Assembly: GCA_946481315.1 (NCBI GenBank)
Contig: CAMLMH010000011.1
Coordinates: 30,475-94,474, forward strand
Source: an uncultured Bacteriovorax sp.
GTDB lineage: Bacteria > Bdellovibrionota > Bacteriovoracia > Bacteriovoracales > Bacteriovoracaceae
Length of the DNA: 64,000 nucleotides
Reading direction: 5' to 3'
Shown here piece by piece: positions 5,453 through 63,945 of this stretch. How positions within the stretch are numbered: the first letter of the stretch is position 1; every line of letters starts with the position of its first letter. Both the position numbers and the translations under genes were made by a program. The notes below the pieces were generated by a model. That model made no database searches, was not told the DNA's origin, and saw only the letters and a list, made by a program, of their open reading frames with translations.

Positions 5453-5488
5453 GTCTCGTTTTGTAAATCTCAATGACATCCATAAAAA

Positions 5489-5516
5489 GAAGCCCCAGAA
5501 ATGGGGCTTTTTTTTT
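5489..5516 (+). terminator. Rho-independent terminator of lon
   Basis: A seven-base stem (AAGCCCC / GGGGCTT, 5490-5496 and 5503-5509) with a six-base loop is followed by a run of T. It isolates lon from the downstream exported enzyme. Confidence 0.93.
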
Positions 5517-5578: not shown

Positions 5579-7171
5579 ATGAAGCTTAATACTCTTATAT
5601 TTTCATCTCTATTTATTTCTCAAGTCTGGGCACTGGAATGTCCTCCAATTGCACAGGCACCATTGTGTCCCAATAGCGGAGCAACTATTCTGGATGAAAC
5701 CTACCCCACACAGGCATTCGTCATGAGTGTTGGACCGGGATTCCGCACAAATCCTCCGCCATCAAAAGAAGTGGCGAGAGTCACAGAAAATTTTATTAAC
5801 TCTGTTGTGAAAAGTTACAATTATGACAACGTTCCGCAAATGATGATTACAACTTCATCAGTAGCAGAATTCAATTTGCAAAAAGCAAAACTAATTGAAA
5901 ATCTCAAAAAACAAAAAATTCCTGAAACTAAGATTGAAAAAATTGCCAATCAGCTTACTCATGTGCAGAACAGAGCGTGGACCTGGCAGCAGGATTATTT
6001 TGAATCTTTTTTTGATCCTAAAACAGGTCGCCCTGTTCTGAGAAACGTCGAAACGTACAGCCGTCTACCCTCTGAAACTGATACTATAAAGCTGGCAGCA
6101 TCCGGTCAGGCCTGTGCGATAACAAAAGGCGAGGCTTTACCTTATGATCCTCAGAGTACAGGTTCTGGAGAAATGGGCGGCAATATTGAAGGAGCGCCGG
6201 GAGGATTCTGTCTGGTGGGAAATAACCAGGGGCCGGACTTTAAAAAAAGTTTTTGTGGGCCGGAAGAAAACAGCATAACCTTAAATGTTGCCTGGCTGGA
6301 AGTGGGGCATGTGGATGAGATTTTTAAAATTATTCCTACAAATCAGAATGATAATCGACCGAAGGAATGTAAATTTTCATTAATGGTCGCCAGTCCACGC
6401 AAAGCTTTACAATTGTGGAGCGATTCCAAAAACCGCAATCAACCATTTTTTAATTTCTCCGCCAAACTTACTGATGATGAACTGGAAGACCTGAGAACAT
6501 CCCGATCTAATATTGAAACAGGAGGAGCAAGTACTTCTCTTTGTGATCTGTTTGTACGTGCCTATAAACCATCGGCTGGTAAAAAAGAGGGGAGAGGAAC
6601 TGGAACCAAAAGTGCCTTTCTGGATTTTATTTTCAATTCAGCCAACGCCCAAACGACCTCTCATGCTGAGCTTGCAGCTCAATGCAATAAGACAATTACT
6701 GAGGTGACCAATGGTCAGTTTGTTGATGAAGTCCGTAAAGATAAGCGTCTACTGGAGTATAATGAAGCCATTCAGGCTTCACTGGATAAAGATACGGCCC
6801 TGATCAAATCTAAAATACTTTCCCGATTACCTCAATGTGCAAAATACTTCGATGTTCTCGAAGTTCCTAATTACTTTGAAGGTGGACCATTAATCGAGGA
6901 TCCGGTGACTGGTAAAGGACGTTTACCCAAAGTTGAAGGTAACGGCGGATCTTTTTTACCTAATCCAACGAACTCTGTACTGATGAATAAAACTTTATTG
7001 TTTTCTGATGCCGGAAGTACTGCTTTTAACGATTATCTGGCACAGGAAATGAAAAACAGAAAAATGAATGCCGATTTTATTCCAACATGGGAATATGCTC
7101 ACATTGGACGAGGAAATATCCATTGTTCTTCTCATTCAATACCATATTGCAGACCAAGAGGTTCACGATGA
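5579..7171 (+). CDS. Secreted protein-arginine deiminase (PAD_C-like) homologue
   Basis: A 530-residue exported protein that resembles the catalytic domain of vertebrate-type peptidylarginine deiminases, enzymes that convert protein arginine to citrulline. ATG at 5579 is chosen since it gives a signal peptide (1-18, ending VWA); a longer frame would begin inside the lon terminator. Conserved segments in order: WQQDYFE with Asp139, GNIEGAPGG near 201, WLEVGHVDE with His244 and Asp246, MVASPRKALQLW near 269, FLPNPTN near 459, and IHCSSHS with Cys516 close to the C-terminus. These correspond to Asp350, His471, Asp473 and Cys645 of human PAD4. The two N-terminal Ig-like PAD domains are absent. 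Fourteen bases downstream features are coupled: its stop overlaps the next gene by four bases. No Shine-Dalgarno is obvious. Confidence 0.8.
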   Translation: MKLNTLIFSSLFISQVWALECPPIAQAPLCPNSGATILDETYPTQAFVMSVGPGFRTNPPPSKEVARVTENFINSVVKSYNYDNVPQMMITTSSVAEFNLQKAKLIENLKKQKIPETKIEKIANQLTHVQNRAWTWQQDYFESFFDPKTGRPVLRNVETYSRLPSETDTIKLAASGQACAITKGEALPYDPQSTGSGEMGGNIEGAPGGFCLVGNNQGPDFKKSFCGPEENSITLNVAWLEVGHVDEIFKIIPTNQNDNRPKECKFSLMVASPRKALQLWSDSKNRNQPFFNFSAKLTDDELEDLRTSRSNIETGGASTSLCDLFVRAYKPSAGKKEGRGTGTKSAFLDFIFNSANAQTTSHAELAAQCNKTITEVTNGQFVDEVRKDKRLLEYNEAIQASLDKDTALIKSKILSRLPQCAKYFDVLEVPNYFEGGPLIEDPVTGKGRLPKVEGNGGSFLPNPTNSVLMNKTLLFSDAGSTAFNDYLAQEMKNRKMNADFIPTWEYAHIGRGNIHCSSHSIPYCRPRGSR

Positions 7172-7545
7172 AATTTTTAGCGACGCTCGTACTGTTGACT
7201 TTACCTGCAATGGGATTTGCAAAGTCTTATCAGTGTCATGTCGAAAATGTGATTGTTAAATACAAAACTACCAGTGATACTCTGACAGCAGAATTTTTTC
7301 TGGATAAAAAACTGGTTAACAGTTGTTTGTTCAATGCACTGGCAAATCCCGGATCTCGTGCTGGTGTGGCCAATTCTGTTACTCAAAATTATGAAAAAGT
7401 CAGTTGTTCTGATGAAACCGTGAAACTAGGAGTGGGGATGGGAGTTTCATCTCGCGTTTATACTAAGACTAGTGTTAAGCGGGATACTGCTTTCTTTTTC
7501 GTTTTTAAGGGATTGGATCCTGTCGACTGTGTAGCCGTTAATTAG
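7168..7545 (+). CDS. Small exported Cys-containing protein coupled to the PAD homologue
   Basis: A 125-residue exported protein; ATG at 7168 overlaps the preceding stop by four bases (ATGA) and gives a clean signal peptide (1-18, ending GFA). The mature chain has four cysteines, which could form two disulfides, and no domain I recognise. Translational coupling suggests it works with the arginine-deiminase homologue, for example as an accessory or inhibitor, but nothing in the sequence proves this. The 3' end overlaps the convergent HD-domain gene by eight bases. Confidence 0.75.
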   Translation: MKFLATLVLLTLPAMGFAKSYQCHVENVIVKYKTTSDTLTAEFFLDKKLVNSCLFNALANPGSRAGVANSVTQNYEKVSCSDETVKLGVGMGVSSRVYTKTSVKRDTAFFFVFKGLDPVDCVAVN

Positions 7546-9120: not shown

Positions 9121-9546
9121 CTAGAGACTGATTTTACAAGCAGAATAAGTACTGGCGTCTTCACCTCTATGATCAAACAGAACATTTGAAATAAAAAATT
9201 CAACTTGTTCTTCTGAGAGTGCACGGATGTGCAGGAGCTGAGTTCCGCCGTTTACATAATGAGGAAAACGCAGAGACTGAGAAGCGGAAACTTCTCCTTT
9301 TTGTAAGTCGACTACTAATCCCAGAGCATTATCCAGAAGAGTATAAGCGTCACGGGTATTGGCAGAATTGATCTCTACAGTAACTGCACCTTTTGTTGTT
9401 GAAACAGCAACAGTACATTTAAGAGCGCCGTTAACACCCTTATAAATACCTGGCGCAACCAGTGCTGTTACCGCTTCAGTAGCAGTTGGCTTTGCAAAAG
9501 CTTGCGAAGAAAGTAGAAGGGTTAGTCCCACGAGAATTGATTTCAT
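9121..9546 (-). CDS. Small exported protein, two-cysteine type
   Basis: A 141-residue exported protein with a signal peptide (1-18, ending QAFA) and a GGAGAG Shine-Dalgarno before the ATG. The mature chain begins with a short helix-like segment and then mostly beta pattern. There are two cysteines only, one in GALKCTV and one five residues from the C-terminus in ACKISL. The same arrangement occurs in the exported protein at 20904-21326, which suggests a shared fold held by one disulfide. No named family is recognised. It has its own terminator and appears monocistronic. Confidence 0.75.
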   Translation of the reverse strand: MKSILVGLTLLLSSQAFAKPTATEAVTALVAPGIYKGVNGALKCTVAVSTTKGAVTVEINSANTRDAYTLLDNALGLVVDLQKGEVSASQSLRFPHYVNGGTQLLHIRALSEEQVEFFISNVLFDHRGEDASTYSACKISL

Positions 9547-13182: not shown

Positions 13183-14439
13183 ATGATTAGACATTTTGTT
13201 GTCTCGTCGAGTCTGCTGACAGCGCTGGCTGTAACTATGCCTGCTCTCTATGCGGATGTCACAAATAAAAACGAAGTTCAGTTGCCAGCTGAAGCTCAGA
13301 ATAAGATAGAGGGAATTAGACTGGATGATGTAGTTGCTGTATTTCCAGCGGTTATTCCCGGTCTGGCCAATGTCGCAGCTAACTTGAAAAAGACACCACA
13401 GGCCTTTTTTCCTTATGGAAATATCGAAGCCGTTCACACAGTCTTTTTAAATGACATCCCTGACCTGAGTGGCGGAGCAGTAGAGTTAAAACTGGTCGGT
13501 TTTGTGAAATATAAGGACGGAACGCGTTTTGAAAAAATTGCGGTTCGTTATAATAAGGGAGCAAAAAAGCTGGAAGAGATGACGATTGAACAACAAGGTT
13601 CAATTGATATCAAAAACACCAGTTTTACTTTGAGTGTCGGGTTAGTTGACCGCAAGCTCATCATTGAAGATAAAAATAACGATATCAAATTACTTTTCCC
13701 GGTGGGGGTAGGTGGATTTGATGAAGGCGTATTGAACGAAGGGCGGGTCAGTTTACTCACTCCACGATTTAAACGGGGAGTTCTTGATCAGCGGGCAGTC
13801 ATTTCCAAGAGAGAAAAACCTCGTTACTTCGACGGAAAGCCTTTTATTCGCATTCTTCAGGGAGCCGATCTTAAAACAGATATGACAGCGATTGGTTTTC
13901 ACATTGAAATCAATGATGGTTTTGTTCGCGGTTTTGATTCGCACGGATGTATGCGGTTACGGGCTTTTGATCTGCAGGCCCTGCATGATCTGATAATGGA
14001 CGGAAATAAACAGCAGTTGCCAATCACCGTAAGCTACCACACGGAAGATAAGGCAGATCACCCGTGGCCTAAAAGAAATAAAACGTACAAGACGGTTCAG
14101 AACAATGGAACTGCAGAAAGTCCTTTTTTCCCCTTAGACAGAGATAATCTGGTGCAAATGACATTTAGGGAATCAGGAGCGCCTATAGAAAAGCTGGCCG
14201 ATCATCCGGCAGATAATAATGAAGATCTTTTTAATTATGATACCCAGAAACAATTGCGCGAGCAGGATGAGAGACGGGCCAATGAATGTCAGGCCCGGAT
14301 CATGGCCGGCACGCTCTCTTCAGATGAAAAAAGCCTGAAGGCCTGTCTGGATGAAGGAAAGCGCAAGGATTCGGCCAGAGACCGCATCTATCGTAAATTT
14401 ATGGGTATAGATTCGGCTGAGGAGCCTATCTTATTCTGA
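13183..14439 (+). CDS. Exported L,D-transpeptidase (YkuD domain)
   Basis: A 418-residue exported peptidoglycan enzyme. A signal peptide covers about 1-24 (ending ALYA) after a GGGGG-rich ribosome site. The YkuD catalytic centre is FHIEINDG followed by SHGCMRLR with the nucleophile Cys256 and the preceding His254. About 160 residues follow the catalytic core and are charged, with two cysteines near the end. Such enzymes form 3-3 crosslinks or attach and exchange peptides on the cell wall; in predatory relatives they can act on the prey wall, which is only a possibility here. Confidence 0.9.
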   Translation: MIRHFVVSSSLLTALAVTMPALYADVTNKNEVQLPAEAQNKIEGIRLDDVVAVFPAVIPGLANVAANLKKTPQAFFPYGNIEAVHTVFLNDIPDLSGGAVELKLVGFVKYKDGTRFEKIAVRYNKGAKKLEEMTIEQQGSIDIKNTSFTLSVGLVDRKLIIEDKNNDIKLLFPVGVGGFDEGVLNEGRVSLLTPRFKRGVLDQRAVISKREKPRYFDGKPFIRILQGADLKTDMTAIGFHIEINDGFVRGFDSHGCMRLRAFDLQALHDLIMDGNKQQLPITVSYHTEDKADHPWPKRNKTYKTVQNNGTAESPFFPLDRDNLVQMTFRESGAPIEKLADHPADNNEDLFNYDTQKQLREQDERRANECQARIMAGTLSSDEKSLKACLDEGKRKDSARDRIYRKFMGIDSAEEPILF

Positions 14440-14548: not shown

Positions 14549-15328
14549 ATGAAAGGGTCGATCCTTTTTCTGGCCGCCACTTTAATGCTTACAGCACATA
14601 CAGGTTTTGCTAAAACACTTATTGTAAGTGACATAGACGATACGGTTAAGCTCACTGATGTTCTGAACTCCAAACCGGAAATTATTCGCAATGCGCTCTT
14701 ATCCAAAAAAGCATTTTCAGGAATGAGCACGCTTTATCGCGAGCTCGATAAGAAAGACACAATCATTCATTATGTTTCAGGTTCTCCCCAAATTATCAAA
14801 TCAATCATTAATAATTTCCTGGAGTACAATCAATTCCCACAGGAAACGAATGTGACATTGAAACGTAAATCAATTGAAACTTATGAATATAAAGTTGAAG
14901 CGATTAAGCATTTAATTGCTAATCACAATCCGGATGAAATTATCCTGATTGGTGATGATACGGAAAAAGATCCCGAAGTCTACGATACGATTTCAAAGCT
15001 TAACCCGCGCAAAGTTTCCGGCATCTATATCCGAGCTATTAGAAACAGGGCGATTCCGGATAATGGGTTATCCCGCAACTTCTTTTCTGCCGTTGAAATT
15101 GCCGGATTTGAACACCTGAAGGGAAAATTGAACACGACAGCTGTGACGAAAGTTACTGACAGCTTTATCCGGCAGGACAATAAATCTGAATTAGCTATTA
15201 AGAATCGTTACTGTCCTTCACAAGGTCGAACTGAACTGGAGGAAATCAAACAACAGGTTCGCGATCAAAAGACGATTGAGGATATGGAAAGGACCCAAAC
15301 TAAAATCATCAAAACTTGTTCGGTTTAA
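14549..15328 (+). CDS. Exported APP1-type (DUF2183) phosphatidate phosphatase-like protein
   Basis: A 259-residue exported protein with a signal peptide (1-21, ending TGFA) and a GGGAG ribosome site. The mature enzyme starts directly with the HAD-type nucleophile motif VSDIDDTVK, followed by the YVSGSPQ motif and GDDTEKDPEVY, which define the APP1/DUF2183 catalytic domain. The yeast founder dephosphorylates phosphatidic acid. An exported version would act on lipids or phosphates outside the cytoplasm. Two cysteines lie in the C-terminal tail. The 3' end overlaps cdd by four bases in convergent orientation. Confidence 0.88.
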   Translation: MKGSILFLAATLMLTAHTGFAKTLIVSDIDDTVKLTDVLNSKPEIIRNALLSKKAFSGMSTLYRELDKKDTIIHYVSGSPQIIKSIINNFLEYNQFPQETNVTLKRKSIETYEYKVEAIKHLIANHNPDEIILIGDDTEKDPEVYDTISKLNPRKVSGIYIRAIRNRAIPDNGLSRNFFSAVEIAGFEHLKGKLNTTAVTKVTDSFIRQDNKSELAIKNRYCPSQGRTELEEIKQQVRDQKTIEDMERTQTKIIKTCSV

Positions 15329-29734: not shown

Positions 29735-30996
29735 GTGCATCTCTGGCCATTATCGGTATTGTCAGTTTGGCGGCAATCGGGGTTCCGCTTTTTGTTATTA
29801 TGTCACTGGCAGCACTGGTTGCCTTCACATACAGTGGAGTAGAGGTCTCCGCAGTCGCGCAGGAAATATACCGGATTGCAGCGGCTCCCACCTTAATGAC
29901 CATTCCGCTTTTTACTTTTGCCGGTTATCTGATGGCCGAAAGTAAATCGCCTCAAAGATTACTTCGTCTGGCGGAGACAGGACTGGGCTGGATGCCGGGT
30001 GGGATTTCCATCGTTGCCCTGGTGGTCTGTGCTTTTTTCACTGCTTTTACCGGTGCTTCAGGAGTCACCATTATCGCTCTTGGCGGATTAATTTATCCAA
30101 TTCTGGTCAAGGATGGTTATTCTGAAAAATATACTTTAGGAACGATAACTGCTTCGGGATCCCTGGGATTGCTATTTCCTCCTTCGCTTCCGATCATTCT
30201 ATATGGGTTAGTTGCTAAAGTTGATATCGATAAACTATTCAAAGCAGGATTGATCCCTGGACTTGTCATTATGGTCATTCTTTCTCTCTGGGCTATCTAT
30301 AATAGCCCCAAAACTGCAGCGGCAAAACATAAGTTCGTTCTCAGAAATTTTTTAATTGCACTTAAAGAAGCCTGGCTGGAAGCGCTGCTGCCTGTCCTTG
30401 TATTGGTCGGTATTTATGGTGGATTCGTAACGGTAACCGAAGCTGCAGCTTTCACCGCACTTTACGTTTTTGTGATCGAAGTGTTTATATATCGCGACCT
30501 CTCTTTCATGAAAGATGTTCCGCGAGTCATTGTGGATTCAATGAGCCTGGTAGGGGGGATCCTTCTGATTCTCTGTTGCGCACTGGGATTTACGAACTAC
30601 CTGGTTGATGAAGAAATTCCACTGAAAATCTTTGCGCTGATGAAGGAATTCATCCATGACAAGTATACATTTCTCTTATTCCTGAATTTATTTTTGTTAG
30701 TAGTCGGATGTTTAATGGATATTTTTTCGGCAATTGTGGTTGTTGTACCACTCATTATCCCGATTGCCACCGACTTTGGGATTGATCCTATTCACCTGGC
30801 GATGATCTTCCTGGCTAATTTGGAAATCGGATATCTCACACCACCAGTGGGAATTAACCTCTTCATCAGCAGTTTTCGCTTTAACAGGCCGATAACTGAA
30901 ATGTATCGTGTCTCGTTACCTTTTTTGATCTTATTGGTAATTGCGCTGTTGATTATTACTTATATACCTAGTCTGAGTTTATTCTGGTTTAATTGA
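29731..30996 (+). CDS. TRAP transporter large permease (DctM family)
   Basis: A 421-residue inner-membrane protein with about 12 hydrophobic segments. Conserved DctM stretches are visible: the IPLFTFAGYLMAES region, AFFTAFTGASGVTIIALG, LGLLFPPSLPIILYG and LTPPVGINLF near the end. It is the ion-coupled transport subunit. The stop overlaps the start of the next exported protein by one base, so five genes may be co-transcribed. Confidence 0.96.
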   Translation: MSASLAIIGIVSLAAIGVPLFVIMSLAALVAFTYSGVEVSAVAQEIYRIAAAPTLMTIPLFTFAGYLMAESKSPQRLLRLAETGLGWMPGGISIVALVVCAFFTAFTGASGVTIIALGGLIYPILVKDGYSEKYTLGTITASGSLGLLFPPSLPIILYGLVAKVDIDKLFKAGLIPGLVIMVILSLWAIYNSPKTAAAKHKFVLRNFLIALKEAWLEALLPVLVLVGIYGGFVTVTEAAAFTALYVFVIEVFIYRDLSFMKDVPRVIVDSMSLVGGILLILCCALGFTNYLVDEEIPLKIFALMKEFIHDKYTFLLFLNLFLLVVGCLMDIFSAIVVVVPLIIPIATDFGIDPIHLAMIFLANLEIGYLTPPVGINLFISSFRFNRPITEMYRVSLPFLILLVIALLIITYIPSLSLFWFN

Positions 30997-32579
30997 TGAT
31001 TTTAAAAACTTTCTTATTTTCACTGGCCCTTTTGTTTTCCTCGCTGGAAGCAAAAGAGCCTGTGCTTAACGAATACTATCTCAATGTCTATCTGGGGGAA
31101 AAGAAAACACCAAATTATCGGGGACCGCTTGATCCGCGAACGGAATTTTCTGATGTCCAGGGGGGATTAATCCTTTTAGATGATCTTTTTAATGACTCTT
31201 ATCTCAATCGTGAAATTCAGACAGCTCCGTTTGATTTACATCACTATTGGTTTAAGGAAGTAGTAGAAAAGTCGACCTGTCCTGATGAAACTTTGAGTGC
31301 GAATATTGATTACATCCGTTATCTTTATCGCTTGGTGACTATAAGTTATCTTTTTGAATCGATGAAGCTCAACCATAAACTTTCCAGCCAGCTTCAGGCA
31401 AAAAATAATTGTTCAATTGATTTTAATACTTTGTTTGGAAAATGCAGTCCGAAAAGCGATGACATGAAAAAATTCCGGGACCGTGTATACGGAAAATTTG
31501 TCAATGAAATTTCCAAAGTAAAGTACCAGCCATTTTCCAGAAGGGAAAAAGAGCAGTGGCATAATGAATTTGAAAAGTCGACATCTCTCACGACTGATCC
31601 GGTTTTCTCCCGTTTGCATGAGTGGTGTATCGGCAATAAAAAGAATTGCCGCTCATTGCCTGAACAGGACATCGAAGCAGCACTGGGGAATTTCTGTCAG
31701 ACTGATATAGAAGTCATGCAGAAGTTATGTTCTGAAAAAGATCAGATCTATGGTTTAAATCAAATTGAGAAAGCAACAGAACTCATCCGCAACTCAAATG
31801 CTTTTAATCTCATCAATCAAACAGGCATGGGTGAAGAATGTCTGCGCCGCTATTCAAAACTTTTTTCAGGAAAAGAGATACCATATATAACATTGAATCG
31901 CATTTACCCTATGATTTATTCGTATCTACTAAAAACAGATTCGCGCTATCTGCAAGGGGAACTCTTTCTTCCAGGTGCATTAAAAGAATTTGATATGAAG
32001 GGGCTCAGTGACTTTTTAACGGCATTGAAACCACCTAAAATTGAACCTGTTGCCGTTAAGCCTAAGCCTAAACCGAAAGCACGGCCAAAGGTTGTTGCTC
32101 CTCCTCCGGTGACTGTAGAAAAACCAGTAGAAAAACCTGTAGTCGTAGAAACGCCCCCTGAGCCACCTAAATTATCCGAGTTTGAAACGAAAGCACTGAT
32201 GGTAACAGCACAGGGGAAAGATCAGGCAGTGATTGATATGAATATTTTTCGGGATGATTTTGAATTTACGCCTGAGATGATGAGTGAGCTGGCAGCACCA
32301 ATGAAAAAATTTCAAACTCGCGCTGCTTTAAACGACATGAAAGCATACGATCTGCTTGGAACGAAAGAAGCACCAGTTGGGCTGGTGTTTATTAAGTACA
32401 TGCTGGATACTGATAATCACCAGGGACTTTTTAATATGGTTACTGTGCTCGGTGAAAAATTTTATGTCGTTAATGATATAGAAAAAAAAGATGTACCGCT
32501 CTACATGCATTTAAAAAACGATGCCAGCACAAATAATCGCTGGCAGTTAGTTTTGCTTAAAGATCCACTGAAAAAATAA
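30996..32579 (+). CDS. Exported protein with Pro/Lys linker, coupled to the TRAP operon
   Basis: A 527-residue exported protein (signal 1-19, ending LEA). ATG at 30996 overlaps the DctM stop (TGATG); a TTG three bases earlier is the alternative. The N-terminal 340 residues are mostly helical with several cysteines. A linker of about 40 residues rich in Lys, Pro, Val and Glu (around 350-390) leads to a C-terminal domain of about 130 residues. No family is recognised. Its placement suggests a role linked to the transporter, perhaps bridging to the cell wall or outer membrane through the linker, which is inference. Confidence 0.72.
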   Translation: MILKTFLFSLALLFSSLEAKEPVLNEYYLNVYLGEKKTPNYRGPLDPRTEFSDVQGGLILLDDLFNDSYLNREIQTAPFDLHHYWFKEVVEKSTCPDETLSANIDYIRYLYRLVTISYLFESMKLNHKLSSQLQAKNNCSIDFNTLFGKCSPKSDDMKKFRDRVYGKFVNEISKVKYQPFSRREKEQWHNEFEKSTSLTTDPVFSRLHEWCIGNKKNCRSLPEQDIEAALGNFCQTDIEVMQKLCSEKDQIYGLNQIEKATELIRNSNAFNLINQTGMGEECLRRYSKLFSGKEIPYITLNRIYPMIYSYLLKTDSRYLQGELFLPGALKEFDMKGLSDFLTALKPPKIEPVAVKPKPKPKARPKVVAPPPVTVEKPVEKPVVVETPPEPPKLSEFETKALMVTAQGKDQAVIDMNIFRDDFEFTPEMMSELAAPMKKFQTRAALNDMKAYDLLGTKEAPVGLVFIKYMLDTDNHQGLFNMVTVLGEKFYVVNDIEKKDVPLYMHLKNDASTNNRWQLVLLKDPLKK

Positions 32580-58817: not shown

Positions 58818-58918
58818 TAGGGGTGCTCCTTTTGTTGAAAAATACAAAATGTTTATTTCAAATGACTCTAAAGATGTATATGATTATGCATATTTTACTG
58901 CACATAAGGAAGAAAAAA

Positions 58919-61756
58919 ATGGCCCTGATCCGTGCTTGCCTAGTTTGCCTTTTGGTCTTTATTTTTTTCGTTGATAAGGGTCATTCTAAACAACTCCCAA
59001 AGAGCGTAACGCTTAAAACAATTCATGCCAGTCTGAACTCAGATTACGGAACTCTTCAAGCTGAAATCCATTTCGATGAACGCGATGCTGTCATTGCGGA
59101 AAAAGTCGAACAAATCATTAAGAGCGAGTTGATTAAAGTGGTCAACTATTTTCACTATGTGCCGCGCGGCCTGGTTCATTTCAACGTCGATCCTTACATG
59201 CGTCTGTCAAACGGAAATGCGCGGGTATTCACATCAAATATCATTAATCTCTATAACTTTCCGTCCAGCAATGCTGATCATCTGATTGTCATGGAAGACT
59301 GGCTAAGAGGCCTGGTCTTCCATGAATATATACACATTACCCATCTGGATCAGACCCGTGGTTATTTAGACGATGGAAGGACAATTTTTGGGTCCATCGC
59401 CAAATTGCCGGCCAATGTCGTTCCTCGCTGGTTTACCGAAGGTATTGCGGTCTGGGGAGAATCGCATCTGCTCGAAGGCGGAAGACTGGACAATCAACTC
59501 TTCAGAAAAGAATTGCTGATTCAGTTTTTGCGCGAAGATTTCTGCGACAGCATTGATTGCCTGGATGATCCAGGAGTGTATCCACATGGGAGCCTGGCCT
59601 ATTGGGCAGGATCACATTTTATTGAATACATTGAAAGCCTGAAAGCAGGTTCAGTGCGATGTCTGGTTGAAGAGAACTCTTCTGCCATTCCTTTTTTGTT
59701 AAACCGCGCTTTTGTTAACTGTACAGGAAAAACAGCGCAGGATCATTTTGCAGATTTTCGCGAAAAAATTATTCAAAGTGCAGGACAATCTAACCGGGAG
59801 ACCTGGGGAGATAAAATCAACAATGCGTTTGGTTCGGACAATTTTCAGAAGGGTTTTCTGCTGGATCAGGAAAGACTATTTAAAATAGAGAATGACCGTT
59901 ATACCGAAGCACTGATGAGTTATGATCTCTCTGAACCGGGCGGGATGAGTCTGATTAAAATGCATTATCGTTATCCGATATCCGATTTATCTGGAATTGT
60001 CAGCGGAATTTCACAGGAAGGTGAGCCGTTAAAATATCTGCTTGTATCTTTCAACGAAGATCCACACTATCGGATTGAAAATAAAAAATGGAAACTGATC
60101 AATTCTGATACTCTGTTGATTGAAAAACATCTTCCTTTTATTAACGATCCCAGCTATGTCATCGCGCTGGGAAATTACCGTTATCTGACTGCTAGTTACA
60201 TTGATAATCAATGGATTATTGAAAAACAAAAATTGAACGAACTCGACCGGCTTGTTGAAGCCGAACTCATCCGCAAGTTTCCGGCGAATGTAAATATAGT
60301 TGCATTTTCCAAAGCTGGAGAAAAACTTTTGCTTAAGATTCACGATGGTGATAAGGCCCGGTTGCTGATTGCAGACCCGACGGCAACAGAAATTACTGAA
60401 GCATACTCTTCGGAGAATTATTTTGAACTCCCTGTTGTTCACGAAAGATTTATGGTGATCAGTGAAGGTGAGAAAAAAACACTGATCGAATTTCAGGACC
60501 ACAACAATATTTTACAGTCACAAATCGACGCAAAACTTTTAAAAAATGTCACAGCGGCTCAGCTCAATGACGGACGGGTCCTTTTTCTGGAAAACAGGCT
60601 AAAAACAAAACTACAGACACTGGATCAGAGTCTGTCCTTTCTGAAACAAAATGCCACAACCGCTGAAGCTAAAACACTGCAGCCTTTCAAACTCCAGGAG
60701 CCGGCCGTAAGCTCCGAGGACATGCATACAGAAAAGTATCCTCAGCTTTATCATCTCTCACCAAATTATTGGTTTCTTGCTACGGGATCAGGTGAAAATA
60801 TCTCCAGTATCGGAGCTATGACTACTCTAGTGGACCCTATGGCAGTTCACACCATTGATGCAACGGCACTTCTATTTCCCAGCATTAGTCGTATTGGCGG
60901 AACACTCAGTTACTTTTACCGGGTGACGCCGGTAACTGATCTTTGGTCAGTCAATGCATTTTTTGAACAGGATTACTCCCGATCAGAATTAAATAACGTA
61001 CTGATGAGTTCACGGGAGTGGGGTGCTGGTACGGCCTATACTTTTTTGCTCAAACGCTGGAGTTACGTTCCTGGAGTGTACCTTACACAGTCGCATGATG
61101 AGGACTTTCTTTCCGAACGTACAATTAACAGTGTTGGTTTAAAGCAGACATTGACTTATGAATCGATGTCTTTTGAGGATCTGGCTCAAAGTATGATCAC
61201 GCAGATTAAACTGCAAAGAGATGAGCCGGATCAGGGGAACCATTATTTAAATCTGCAATCACGTTTTTTTCTGTTGGGACGTTTTTCAGAACGCCTTGAG
61301 ATGGGAGTTCAGAGTGCATACGGAAAACTTTTTAAAAATGATTTCCGGCGAGGTGTGATTTACGGGGGAGGAATAGATTCAGTCGTCAATCAGCGCTGGT
61401 TTGAATTCTATGGAATCCCTTACAGCAATGCCTATGGTAATGAGATTTTTACATTTCGCTTATTCGCGGAATACAATTTCTGGAATATCTACCGCGGAAA
61501 AAACTTTATTCCTATCTTCTTCAAGGAAGCACATTTTCTGTTAGGGCGGGAAACAATGTATGCCGACCGTATCTTTTTAGATAATTCGTTAATCCGGGAA
61601 AAAGCAGTTAATTCTTTCTTCGGAGGCGTTCGCCTTAAAACGAATATTTTTTATTACGTACCCACCGATCTGGATTTAATCTTTTCATCTACCCGTCATC
61701 CATCCGGGCAAAGCGTGCAGGCAGTGAATTTTACAATCAATGCCGAGCTTTTTTAG
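58919..61756 (+). CDS. Exported HEXXH metallopeptidase with C-terminal barrel-like region
   Basis: A 945-residue exported protein. ATG at 58919 is chosen: AAGGA lies about nine bases upstream, and a signal peptide (about 4-24) follows. The zinc motif is H135-E-Y-I-H139 (VFHEYIH), with a third ligand likely Glu174 in RWFTEGIAVWGE, as in gluzincin peptidase MA-like proteins. Residues about 300-650 contain repeated beta segments that may form a propeller as in TolB-like proteins, and the last 300 residues end in NAELF as in outer-membrane barrels. The gene is divergent from pal. Substrates are unknown. Confidence 0.78.
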   Translation: MALIRACLVCLLVFIFFVDKGHSKQLPKSVTLKTIHASLNSDYGTLQAEIHFDERDAVIAEKVEQIIKSELIKVVNYFHYVPRGLVHFNVDPYMRLSNGNARVFTSNIINLYNFPSSNADHLIVMEDWLRGLVFHEYIHITHLDQTRGYLDDGRTIFGSIAKLPANVVPRWFTEGIAVWGESHLLEGGRLDNQLFRKELLIQFLREDFCDSIDCLDDPGVYPHGSLAYWAGSHFIEYIESLKAGSVRCLVEENSSAIPFLLNRAFVNCTGKTAQDHFADFREKIIQSAGQSNRETWGDKINNAFGSDNFQKGFLLDQERLFKIENDRYTEALMSYDLSEPGGMSLIKMHYRYPISDLSGIVSGISQEGEPLKYLLVSFNEDPHYRIENKKWKLINSDTLLIEKHLPFINDPSYVIALGNYRYLTASYIDNQWIIEKQKLNELDRLVEAELIRKFPANVNIVAFSKAGEKLLLKIHDGDKARLLIADPTATEITEAYSSENYFELPVVHERFMVISEGEKKTLIEFQDHNNILQSQIDAKLLKNVTAAQLNDGRVLFLENRLKTKLQTLDQSLSFLKQNATTAEAKTLQPFKLQEPAVSSEDMHTEKYPQLYHLSPNYWFLATGSGENISSIGAMTTLVDPMAVHTIDATALLFPSISRIGGTLSYFYRVTPVTDLWSVNAFFEQDYSRSELNNVLMSSREWGAGTAYTFLLKRWSYVPGVYLTQSHDEDFLSERTINSVGLKQTLTYESMSFEDLAQSMITQIKLQRDEPDQGNHYLNLQSRFFLLGRFSERLEMGVQSAYGKLFKNDFRRGVIYGGGIDSVVNQRWFEFYGIPYSNAYGNEIFTFRLFAEYNFWNIYRGKNFIPIFFKEAHFLLGRETMYADRIFLDNSLIREKAVNSFFGGVRLKTNIFYYVPTDLDLIFSSTRHPSGQSVQAVNFTINAELF

Positions 61757-61805: not shown

Positions 61806-62186
61806 ATGAAAACTCTTATTATAAGCACACTCTTATTTTTTTCTTTTCATCTGACTGCCGGAGAAGTTGTCTGGAAACTGGGAAAAACGTTTATCCCCAT
61901 GTCCCAGAATGATTCAAAACGCTGGCTGATCTCTTTGCATTGTGAAACAGACCCGTGCGAGGCACTTCAGCAGTTACAAATGATTAATGTCAGTTTGCTA
62001 AAGAAAAATGATCTCGCCGGAGGAAAAAACCCCGGTGCAGTCTTATGCCATAAACTACCCGGGGCAAGTGTTGTTTTCATGGATGATTTAAGCGGCAATC
62101 AAAATAGTTTTTGCAAGTTTAAAGACGGATCAATTGTTTCTAATTCCACTTTGGTGATTTATGCAGAAGCCAACACAAAAAAATAA
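61806..62186 (+). CDS. DUF333-like exported protein
   Basis: A 126-residue exported protein (signal 1-18, ending LTAG). The segment NPGAVLCHKLPG through GNQNSFCKFKDGS resembles the DUF333 domain, which has this Cys spacing and the C-x-F-x-D-G motif. Four cysteines are in the mature chain. It overlaps the papain-like protease gene by 26 bases, so the two are probably translated together; an inhibitor or chaperone role is an inference. Confidence 0.75.
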   Translation: MKTLIISTLLFFSFHLTAGEVVWKLGKTFIPMSQNDSKRWLISLHCETDPCEALQQLQMINVSLLKKNDLAGGKNPGAVLCHKLPGASVVFMDDLSGNQNSFCKFKDGSIVSNSTLVIYAEANTKK

Positions 62187-63945
62187 TCTTCTATTGCTGA
62201 CTTTTATAACACTGATGCATCCAGCCTGGAGTCTTGCTCAAAGTTGTCATGGTGTGGGCGATGGTGAGGTTGTCCGTCTGGATGCTCCCGGAAAACCACT
62301 GCACAACTTCCGCACTCAGGATCAGGATGGCCTGGGCACTTGTTATGCCAATACTGCTTCTGTTTTGTTGCAATCTAAGTTAAAAAATAATCCGGAAGTT
62401 TCTTATCTTAATCTGGCCTTTATGTACGCTGAAAAGCATTCTGCTCCTGCCGTTCGACAAAATGGTCAGGACTCCGGATTCCAACCGAAAAAAAATCCCA
62501 CAGACAGTGATGCCTTTTTGATCGATGGCGGTTTTACCTGTGAAACAATCATGGCGGCAAAAGAGCGGGGTGGTGTTTGCAAGCGCTCTGACGTAGCGCT
62601 GGAAAGTTTTTTTCACTCTGATGGAACAACAGTGGCCGCTGACAGTTCATGGATTCAAAAAGACCTGATTAATAAGCTCTCCCGTTACTACGATGGTATT
62701 TTTCATAGTTTCGAGCGCAAACAGAACAAACCTGAAAACCAGTTGCCGGGGATTCTTTCATTTCTGGCCCCCAAGCAAAAAGAAGAACCCAATCGTTTTC
62801 AGGAATATAAACTGGCCTTGAAAAATGTTTTAAATAAAGGAAGAGAAAAATATAGCGAAGCCACTTGTCTAAAACCAGACACAGCTCAGTCGGAAGAAGT
62901 GTTAAAAAATATCCTGGCCCGTATATATCAATATTCTAACAATCCAAAAAATTTCAAAAATAAAGATTTTAAACGTATTATGGAGACAGGTCGCAAATTT
63001 GGTTCAACCTATAAAATGAAGACCTCTCAAGGGTATAAGTTAGAAATTGATATTCAGCCACAGGCCAAAAAAGCACTGAAAGATGTGTATCTCAAAACCA
63101 TCACTGAAACTCCAGAAGCCAATGCAGAAGAAACATTTCTGAAAACATTAAGCAAGATCCATCCGTCTTTTAATGAAAAAATGCTTAAGGCCATCGGTGG
63201 ACTATCAGATCAGGACAAAGTTCATCTCGCTATTGATGAAGATCGATATGTTCGCAAAAACATCGAAGAATGTAAGAAAGCGCAAAAGCTGGAATACTTT
63301 ACCAGTGACGATGGTTTCATGAAAGATTTTAACAGTGATACGTGTCTCGCAAAGTACAGTAATCACGCAGAAAATATCCGGCAGTTGGTAACCACACTGG
63401 ATAAAGCAAACATGCGCAATATTGATTCACTTTACAGTTTCCTGATGGATCTGCCGGAGATGAATTACGAACAGGCCATGATGAGAATGGTTGGACCAGA
63501 TTGTCCGGATGATAAAAAAATTAAGCTCCCAGAAGATCTGCAGTGTGAAGGTAAAGATATAACTTATCCTTATGGAGAACAGACAGCAGCTACCGATGCT
63601 GCTTTTCTACAGGAAACCAAAACCAGGCTTAAAAATGTCGCTGCAGATGCGTTTAAATCAGGAAATGCAGTTGGACTGTCAATCTGTACCGGTTTCTGGG
63701 ACCCTCTTAATCCAGATCAGTTTTATAATAAAACCAAACAATGCCCTACGACGACCCATGGGTTCCACGCAGTGGCGATGGTTGGCTATCGATGTAAGGC
63801 TGGACAGATGCAGTATCTGATTCAAAATTCCTGGGGAGACTGGGCGGCGGCCAATACACGTTTTGCAGAAACGGAACCTGGGAAGGCTTGGATCAGTGAA
63901 GAAGATCTGGCGAAAAATGCGTATCGCTATGATGTGATCAAATAA
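62161..63945 (+). CDS. Exported papain-like cysteine peptidase with large insertion
   Basis: A 594-residue exported protein (signal about 1-27). Papain-type residues are seen: nucleophile Cys61 in GLGTCYANT (with the preceding Gln as oxyanion helper in RTQDQDG), His536 in GFHAVAMVGY and Asn556 in LIQNSWGDW. In typical C1 peptidases Cys and His are about 130 residues apart; here it is about 475, with a helical Lys/Glu/Asn-rich insertion. No propeptide precedes the catalytic Cys. It is coupled to the DUF333-like gene. Confidence 0.85.
   Translation: MQKPTQKNNLLLLTFITLMHPAWSLAQSCHGVGDGEVVRLDAPGKPLHNFRTQDQDGLGTCYANTASVLLQSKLKNNPEVSYLNLAFMYAEKHSAPAVRQNGQDSGFQPKKNPTDSDAFLIDGGFTCETIMAAKERGGVCKRSDVALESFFHSDGTTVAADSSWIQKDLINKLSRYYDGIFHSFERKQNKPENQLPGILSFLAPKQKEEPNRFQEYKLALKNVLNKGREKYSEATCLKPDTAQSEEVLKNILARIYQYSNNPKNFKNKDFKRIMETGRKFGSTYKMKTSQGYKLEIDIQPQAKKALKDVYLKTITETPEANAEETFLKTLSKIHPSFNEKMLKAIGGLSDQDKVHLAIDEDRYVRKNIEECKKAQKLEYFTSDDGFMKDFNSDTCLAKYSNHAENIRQLVTTLDKANMRNIDSLYSFLMDLPEMNYEQAMMRMVGPDCPDDKKIKLPEDLQCEGKDITYPYGEQTAATDAAFLQETKTRLKNVAADAFKSGNAVGLSICTGFWDPLNPDQFYNKTKQCPTTTHGFHAVAMVGYRCKAGQMQYLIQNSWGDWAAANTRFAETEPGKAWISEEDLAKNAYRYDVIK

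Follow-up and report, generated by a model that had tools for sequence, protein, structure and literature searches.

To our knowledge, few studies of protein citrullination in bacteria go beyond Porphyromonas and a single cyanobacterial enzyme. PPAD, the secreted citrullinating pentein enzyme of Porphyromonas gingivalis, belongs to a family which we take to be PF04371, the agmatine-deiminase family. The human protein-arginine deiminases (PADs) PAD3 and PAD4 share the PAD_C fold and a catalytic Asp/His/Asp/Cys set, and have two calcium sites in the catalytic domain. Cummings et al. (PMC8826395) describe the PAD of Cyanothece sp. 8801 as a three-domain enzyme that is active and calcium-dependent on proteins, and restrict calcium sites 2 and 4 to an animal/cyanobacterial clade; the fungal and actinobacterial PADs lack these two sites and keep a divergent PAD_M domain. 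In the text of that paper the term 'signal peptide' does not occur, and neither a loop motif nor a partner is described in the sections consulted. For secreted enzymes with an exported partner, PMC4686830 describes a self-protection pair in Bdellovibrio, where the gene for the inhibitor Bd3460, an ankyrin-repeat protein, lies directly downstream of that for its target, the endopeptidase Bd3459.

The locus examined here lies in a 64,000 nt stretch of DNA, referred to as the window, and its features are listed in Table 1. The PAD it encodes resembles PAD3 and PAD4 in fold and catalytic residues; unlike them, it lacks the PAD_N and PAD_M domains and has a signal peptide, many conserved cysteines, an extra loop, a partner gene and, by sequence, only one catalytic-domain calcium site. 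As a bacterial PAD it is comparable to the Cyanothece enzyme, but only PAD_C is present, and though it shares the lack of calcium sites 2 and 4 with the fungal and actinobacterial enzymes, it does not retain their divergent PAD_M. Like PPAD it would be a secreted citrullinating pentein enzyme, but of a different family. The order of the genes, a secreted enzyme followed by a small exported protein, recalls Bd3459/Bd3460, although the partner is predicted to be all-beta and has no identified family. Tentatively, and a little short of an even chance, we read the locus as a two-gene operon for a secreted, calcium-dependent protein-arginine deiminase and its own dedicated partner.

Table 1. Features of the PAD locus (window positions)
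Feature	Position	Strand	Remarks
Terminator-like hairpin 3' of upstream gene	5484..5515	+	
PAD gene, secreted PAD_C-only protein-arginine deiminase	5579..7171	+	530 aa
N-terminal signal peptide, residues 1-18 (MKLNTLIFSSLFISQVWA)	5579..5632	+	Read by eye
Q138-D139-Y-F-E142, catalytic Asp139 and two putative calcium-1 ligands	5990..6004	+	Compared with PAD3 WIQDEME
E204 in GGNIE, third putative calcium-1 ligand	6188..6190	+	PAD3 alignment; 141/146
H244-V-D246, catalytic His and Asp	6308..6316	+	Compared with PAD4 GHVDE; both 146/146
Variable loop C322 to C369	6542..6685	+	Partly disordered in model (334-358 pLDDT < 50)
Signal-peptidase-like motif K344-SAFLDFIFNSANA-357	6608..6649	+	Putative cut before Q358
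Catalytic Cys516 (IHCSS)	7124..7126	+	Compared with PAD3/PAD4 HC motif; 145/146
ATGA overlap, PAD stop and partner start	7168..7171	+	
Partner gene	7168..7545	+	125 aa; signal peptide (by eye) and predicted 8-strand beta domain

The first-pass annotation had read the gene as a secreted PAD homologue, and its open reading frame and residue numbers (D139, H244, D246 and C516) were correct; the stretches WQQDYFE, WLEVGHVDE, MVASPRK, FLPNPTN and IHCSSHS that it named are all present. The HMM check named beforehand, a search of Pfam, returned a significant match to PF03068 (E 1.6e-14, 54.2 bits against a cut-off of 25) and to no other family at E <= 1. PF04371 was among the families without a match at that threshold, which agrees with the proposed distinction from the Porphyromonas agmatine-deiminase type, and NCBIfam gave chance matches only. 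The predicted structure has the five-bladed pentein fold of PAD_C, as the annotation had anticipated, and matches PADs, so that fold and PF03068 both favour a PAD homologue. The structural match covers residues 295-660 of PAD4 only and PF03068 stands alone in Pfam, bearing out the reported absence of the two N-terminal Ig-like domains. The homologues found at E <= 1e-3 numbered 198, and all 120 listed carry PF03068 in precomputed domain assignments, a similarity beyond chance. When the 146 sequences of at least 480 aa (window PAD included) were aligned, all four catalytic residues occurred together in 145. Calling the gene a PAD is thus correct but, taken alone, unremarkable, as the enzyme is already in the databases.

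Within the alignment, Q138 and D139 are invariant (146/146 each) and E142 is found in 133 of the 146. Q138, E142 and E204, presumably ligands of calcium site 1, align with WxQDxxE and GNxE in human PAD3 and occur together in 131 of 146 sequences. Hence, judged by sequence, site 1 looks kept and would be the only calcium site of the catalytic domain. The second site, with ligands that we take to be E351, D369, S370 and N373 in PAD4 numbering, is not kept, position 140 being Y, W or F in 141 of the 146 PADs, position 156 being E in only 41 and position 157 being hydrophobic. The description 'vertebrate-type' in the first-pass annotation is therefore loose. An enzyme whose substrate is free arginine, or some other small guanidine compound, rather than protein could be suspected from the lack of an invariant counterpart of R374, which we take to be the substrate-backbone arginine of PAD4; the presumed match, position 162, is R in 84 of the 146. 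However, human PAD3 reads NG, not NR, at that place, and the fold match is to PADs that act on proteins. Citrullination of proteins by the cyanobacterial PAD, as described in PMC8826395, also counts against this, and we consider a small-molecule substrate very improbable. Conversion of peptidyl-arginine to citrulline outside the cytoplasm is very probably what the enzyme would perform.

A genome scan yielded 154 stretches encoding a relative. Among the best 80 of the 154, which were kept, 17 (L001-L017) match over most of the length, 12 of these carrying the title Bacteriovorax or Bacteriovoracaceae; the more distant PADs among them come from several phyla. The genome had been called 'Bdellovibrionota-like', a label that rests on these nearest named relatives. 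In the order of the genome that holds L001 (G004), a match at E <= 1e-5 is present in 38 of 129 genomes; in the phylum, the figure is 73 of 368 at E <= 1e-8. The enzyme may modify prey or host proteins, as the first-pass annotation proposed, but the spread is patchy and the PAD is therefore not a core predation gene. Six genomes (L143-L148) encode PADs close to Bdellovibrio spp. proteins, those of B. bacteriovorus included, which carry the NCBI label 'protein-arginine deiminase family protein', the PAD of L147 being 57-77 % identical to the nearest named Bdellovibrio proteins. The enzyme is thus known to automatic annotation. PF03068 alone detects five of six Bdellovibrio-like genomes (G151 was missed) and none of 14 control genomes. 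In one genome of the order, G064, divergent PAD genes have expanded to at least six, each on a contig of its own (L107 and L179-L183), and five of them fall in one tree clade.

The PAD start at 5579 was preferred over that of a longer alternative frame at 5501, because the latter lies inside the terminator-like hairpin of the upstream gene. The position of this hairpin also makes it likely that PAD and partner are transcribed alone. The signal peptide claimed for the PAD is visible by eye, with cleavage expected between MKLNTLIFSSLFISQVWA and LEC. The partner has four conserved cysteines, at residues 23, 53, 80 and 121. A small secreted-looking open reading frame adjoins the PAD on the same strand in all 16 near loci examined (L001-L007 and L009-L017, with L004 and L005 near copies; L008 ends within the PAD), downstream of it in 15 and upstream in L017. 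The L017 pair, with its reversed gene order, is on a contig titled Nitrosovibrio sp., representing either transfer or a misplaced contig. The 31 main-clade partners have the common spacing C-x25-38-C-x25-29-C-x28-46-C, a few with extra cysteines; 29 are downstream of the PAD and two upstream, and 19 overlap it by 4 bases.

A search for the partner by protein words found six proteins only, the query included, and genome searches were therefore used. A profile built from 16 partners was run over 111 sequences (the window and the PAD-surrounding loci), and its matches adjoin a PAD with one exception, a weak paralogue in L011 (9963-10460, E 7e-4) on the opposite strand and away from the PAD. Two loci outside the training set matched at 4.6e-21 and 5.5e-22. 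The same profile, run over the 129 whole genomes of the order independently of any PAD, found 27 genomes at E <= 0.01. In 15 of them the match was at E <= 1.1e-20 and lay next to a family PAD (seen in G103 as a C-terminal piece only). Training sequences had come from 12 of these 15, and G087 nearly duplicates one of them, so that the search is chiefly of value in revealing no strong match away from a PAD. The remaining 12 genomes gave weak matches only, at E 1.9e-6 to 0.0054. Of the genomes in the order that have a nearly full-length family PAD, G015 alone lacks a partner match, and there the contig end cuts the PAD. Among the phylum-search loci, 14 of 15 have a partner-type open reading frame (L139 and L141 are the same places as L015 and L016) and L140 has none. 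The close Bdellovibrio-like relatives L143-L148 all carry the partner, and L149 (905-4536) has two PAD-partner pairs in tandem, the second PAD being cut by the locus end. Weak partner-like frames (E 1.9e-6 to 1.7e-4) were also seen in G102, G128 and G085 (L126-L128), which have no PAD match at E <= 1e-5; these could be free-standing relatives of the partner.

The small gene could in principle be carried for co-expression only, with no physical link to the PAD, for example as a substrate or a separate envelope protein. The low identity of other partners to that of the window (13-22 %) and the L011 paralogue would fit such an arrangement. However, the partner stays beside the PAD while the rest of the neighbourhood changes from genome to genome (the window has a Lon-like gene, L001 and L002 an HNH-like frame, both labels being readings of the sequences, and other genes occur elsewhere), and no match at E <= 1e-6 was found away from a PAD in the 129 genomes. 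We consider mere co-expression improbable.

When 21 partners were compared to Pfam, only four chance-level families appeared (best E 0.032), MliC not being matched at E <= 1, and the window partner found nothing in NCBIfam or PADLOC. Solved structures gave no significant fold match using Foldseek and VIA, PAD_M included. The top Foldseek row was PliC/MliC, below significance at E 0.026; these periplasmic lysozyme inhibitors are small exported beta-barrels. A GID4 row, not reliable, was also among the hints from Foldseek and VIA.

The strict coupling and the 4-base overlap would equally suit an obligate subunit, and the partner might be an activator or folding helper, either a chaperone or a stand-in for the calcium-sensing PAD_M. 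Its predicted all-beta structure would fit, as would the absence here of PAD_M, a domain that holds calcium sites in the animal enzymes (PMC8826395). Against this, 37 of the 74 phylum PADs labelled below are partnerless, some of only about 440 residues (L101 and L102), and folding alone of a domain of this kind therefore does not require the partner; no significant fold match to PAD_M was seen. We regard an activator or helper as rather unlikely.

The loop between C322 and C369 includes a motif reading KSAFLDFIFNSANA followed by Q in the window. In most relatives the corresponding loop has a basic residue, a hydrophobic stretch, A/S/V-x-A and then a polar or small residue. A strict form of this rule is satisfied by 119 of 146 loops, whereas shuffled loops satisfy it 32.6 times on average; in many of the 27 loops that fail, the motif is nevertheless visible by eye, and at least six around P0067 depart from it. 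A home-made signal-peptidase score, which is crude and not SignalP, placed the best internal site of the mature protein within the loop in 116 of 146 cases, the loop being 12 % of the protein length, and in the window A357 is the top-scoring internal site. The exposed loop may be cut at AxA by a signal-peptidase-like protease to leave two chains that cysteines hold together, and such a cut might serve to activate the enzyme in place of the absent PAD_M control; we treat this as plausible, if appreciably short of even. Alternatively, the motif could always stay uncut and serve to dock the partner beta-barrel, or to bind membranes as an amphipathic helix, and this is likewise a real possibility that falls below an even chance. 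The small residues at -3 and -1, together with N, P or S at -5 in 51 of the 119 motif-bearing loops, are features of peptidase sites that docking would not need, and docking is not helped by the association of motif with partner, which is not significant after kinship is considered.

This association was examined among the phylum-set PAD frames of at least 400 aa, of which 74 of 78 were labelled after setting aside duplicates (L192, L176 and L189). Those left unlabelled were L093 and L105 (partner frame without a common start codon), L185 (contig end) and L178 (171 bases left downstream). Partner and motif occur together in 33, partner only in four, motif only in two and neither in 35 (Fisher p 5.6e-14, uncorrected for kinship). 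Labelling was done by hand, not blind, and L083, L085, L088 and L149 were counted as motif-bearing by eye, the automatic rule having picked another place or none, and near copies are present among the rows (L085/L088; L143/L146/L147). In a kinship-corrected test on independent pairs significance was out of reach, there being too few pairs.

A quick tree of the PADs, not a careful search, places partner and motif together in two separate clades. L096 and L161 fall inside the main clade on long branches, their placement being unsure, and have neither, L161 bearing a lipobox in their place. It is mainly in partnerless PADs that a lipobox pattern or a distant membrane segment turns up, but weak lipobox-pattern matches also occur in the partner-bearing L139 and L110, and many partnerless PADs look soluble. 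All 41 PADs without a labelled partner were checked for neighbours. L159 and L160 have a secreted 235-aa frame 124 bases downstream and L098 a 160-aa frame upstream, and were counted as partnerless as these frames have no partner cysteine pattern by eye. The second, distant clade (L103, L105, L106, L109, L110, L174 and L175) is accompanied by a small secreted protein of its own, encoded downstream, which has two or three cysteines and may be a relative of the four-cysteine partner. Partners of the two clades (A and B) matched with probability 92, a value inflated by the signal peptides that were included; without these, the probability was 38 and P 3.3e-4, compared to P 0.054 for the best of 20 shuffled controls. 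The two partner groups are thus likely homologous.

A coupled exported protein is a common answer to self-damage by an exported enzyme. Together with the example of Bd3459/Bd3460, this would favour inhibition or self-protection over activation, the loop being a site of cleavage or docking. A PAD exported in free form could harm the envelope of its producer. The small cysteine-bearing beta partner exported with it may bind the PAD, keeping it inactive or protecting the envelope proteins of the producer, and this hold would last until the PAD is released or meets prey or debris, a scheme to which we would give somewhat less than an even chance. The fullest version, a zymogen PAD with a dedicated periplasmic beta-barrel inhibitor, activated by internal cleavage of a loop replacing the calcium control of PAD_M and used on prey proteins in predation as a previously undescribed two-component citrullination system of some Bdellovibrionota, is unlikely to be right in its entirety.

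The partner family and the internal motif appear undescribed in the literature searched. Searches on Bdellovibrio deiminase or citrullination, PF03068, PAD immunity and internal signal peptidase, with subscription papers largely outside their scope, listed no paper on this family or pair, and 'deiminase' is absent from the searched text of a polymorphic-toxin survey (PMC3482391). Should the partner be a natural protein inhibitor of a PAD-fold enzyme, a secreted PAD from a predator clade would offer a genetically tractable system, with PAD-family proteins in Bdellovibrio including B. bacteriovorus and a partner in the close relatives. The Bdellovibrio group is known for its predators. Processing at a conserved internal AxA site of a secreted enzyme is likewise a question open to direct test.

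Several other genes of the window were noted. Near the operon, 9121-9546 (- strand) encodes a secreted-looking 141-aa protein that has no Pfam match and no partner cysteine pattern. A 418-aa protein (13183-14439, + strand), with no Pfam match at 1e-5, includes an SHGCMR stretch reminiscent of L,D-transpeptidases, and three further + strand frames of 977, 594 and 528 aa (58823-61756, 62161-63945 and 30993-32579, respectively) also lack Pfam matches at 1e-5. The secreted-looking product of 14549-15328 (+ strand) contains an APP1-type phosphatidate phosphatase domain (E 1.1e-30), of a family known chiefly in eukaryotes.
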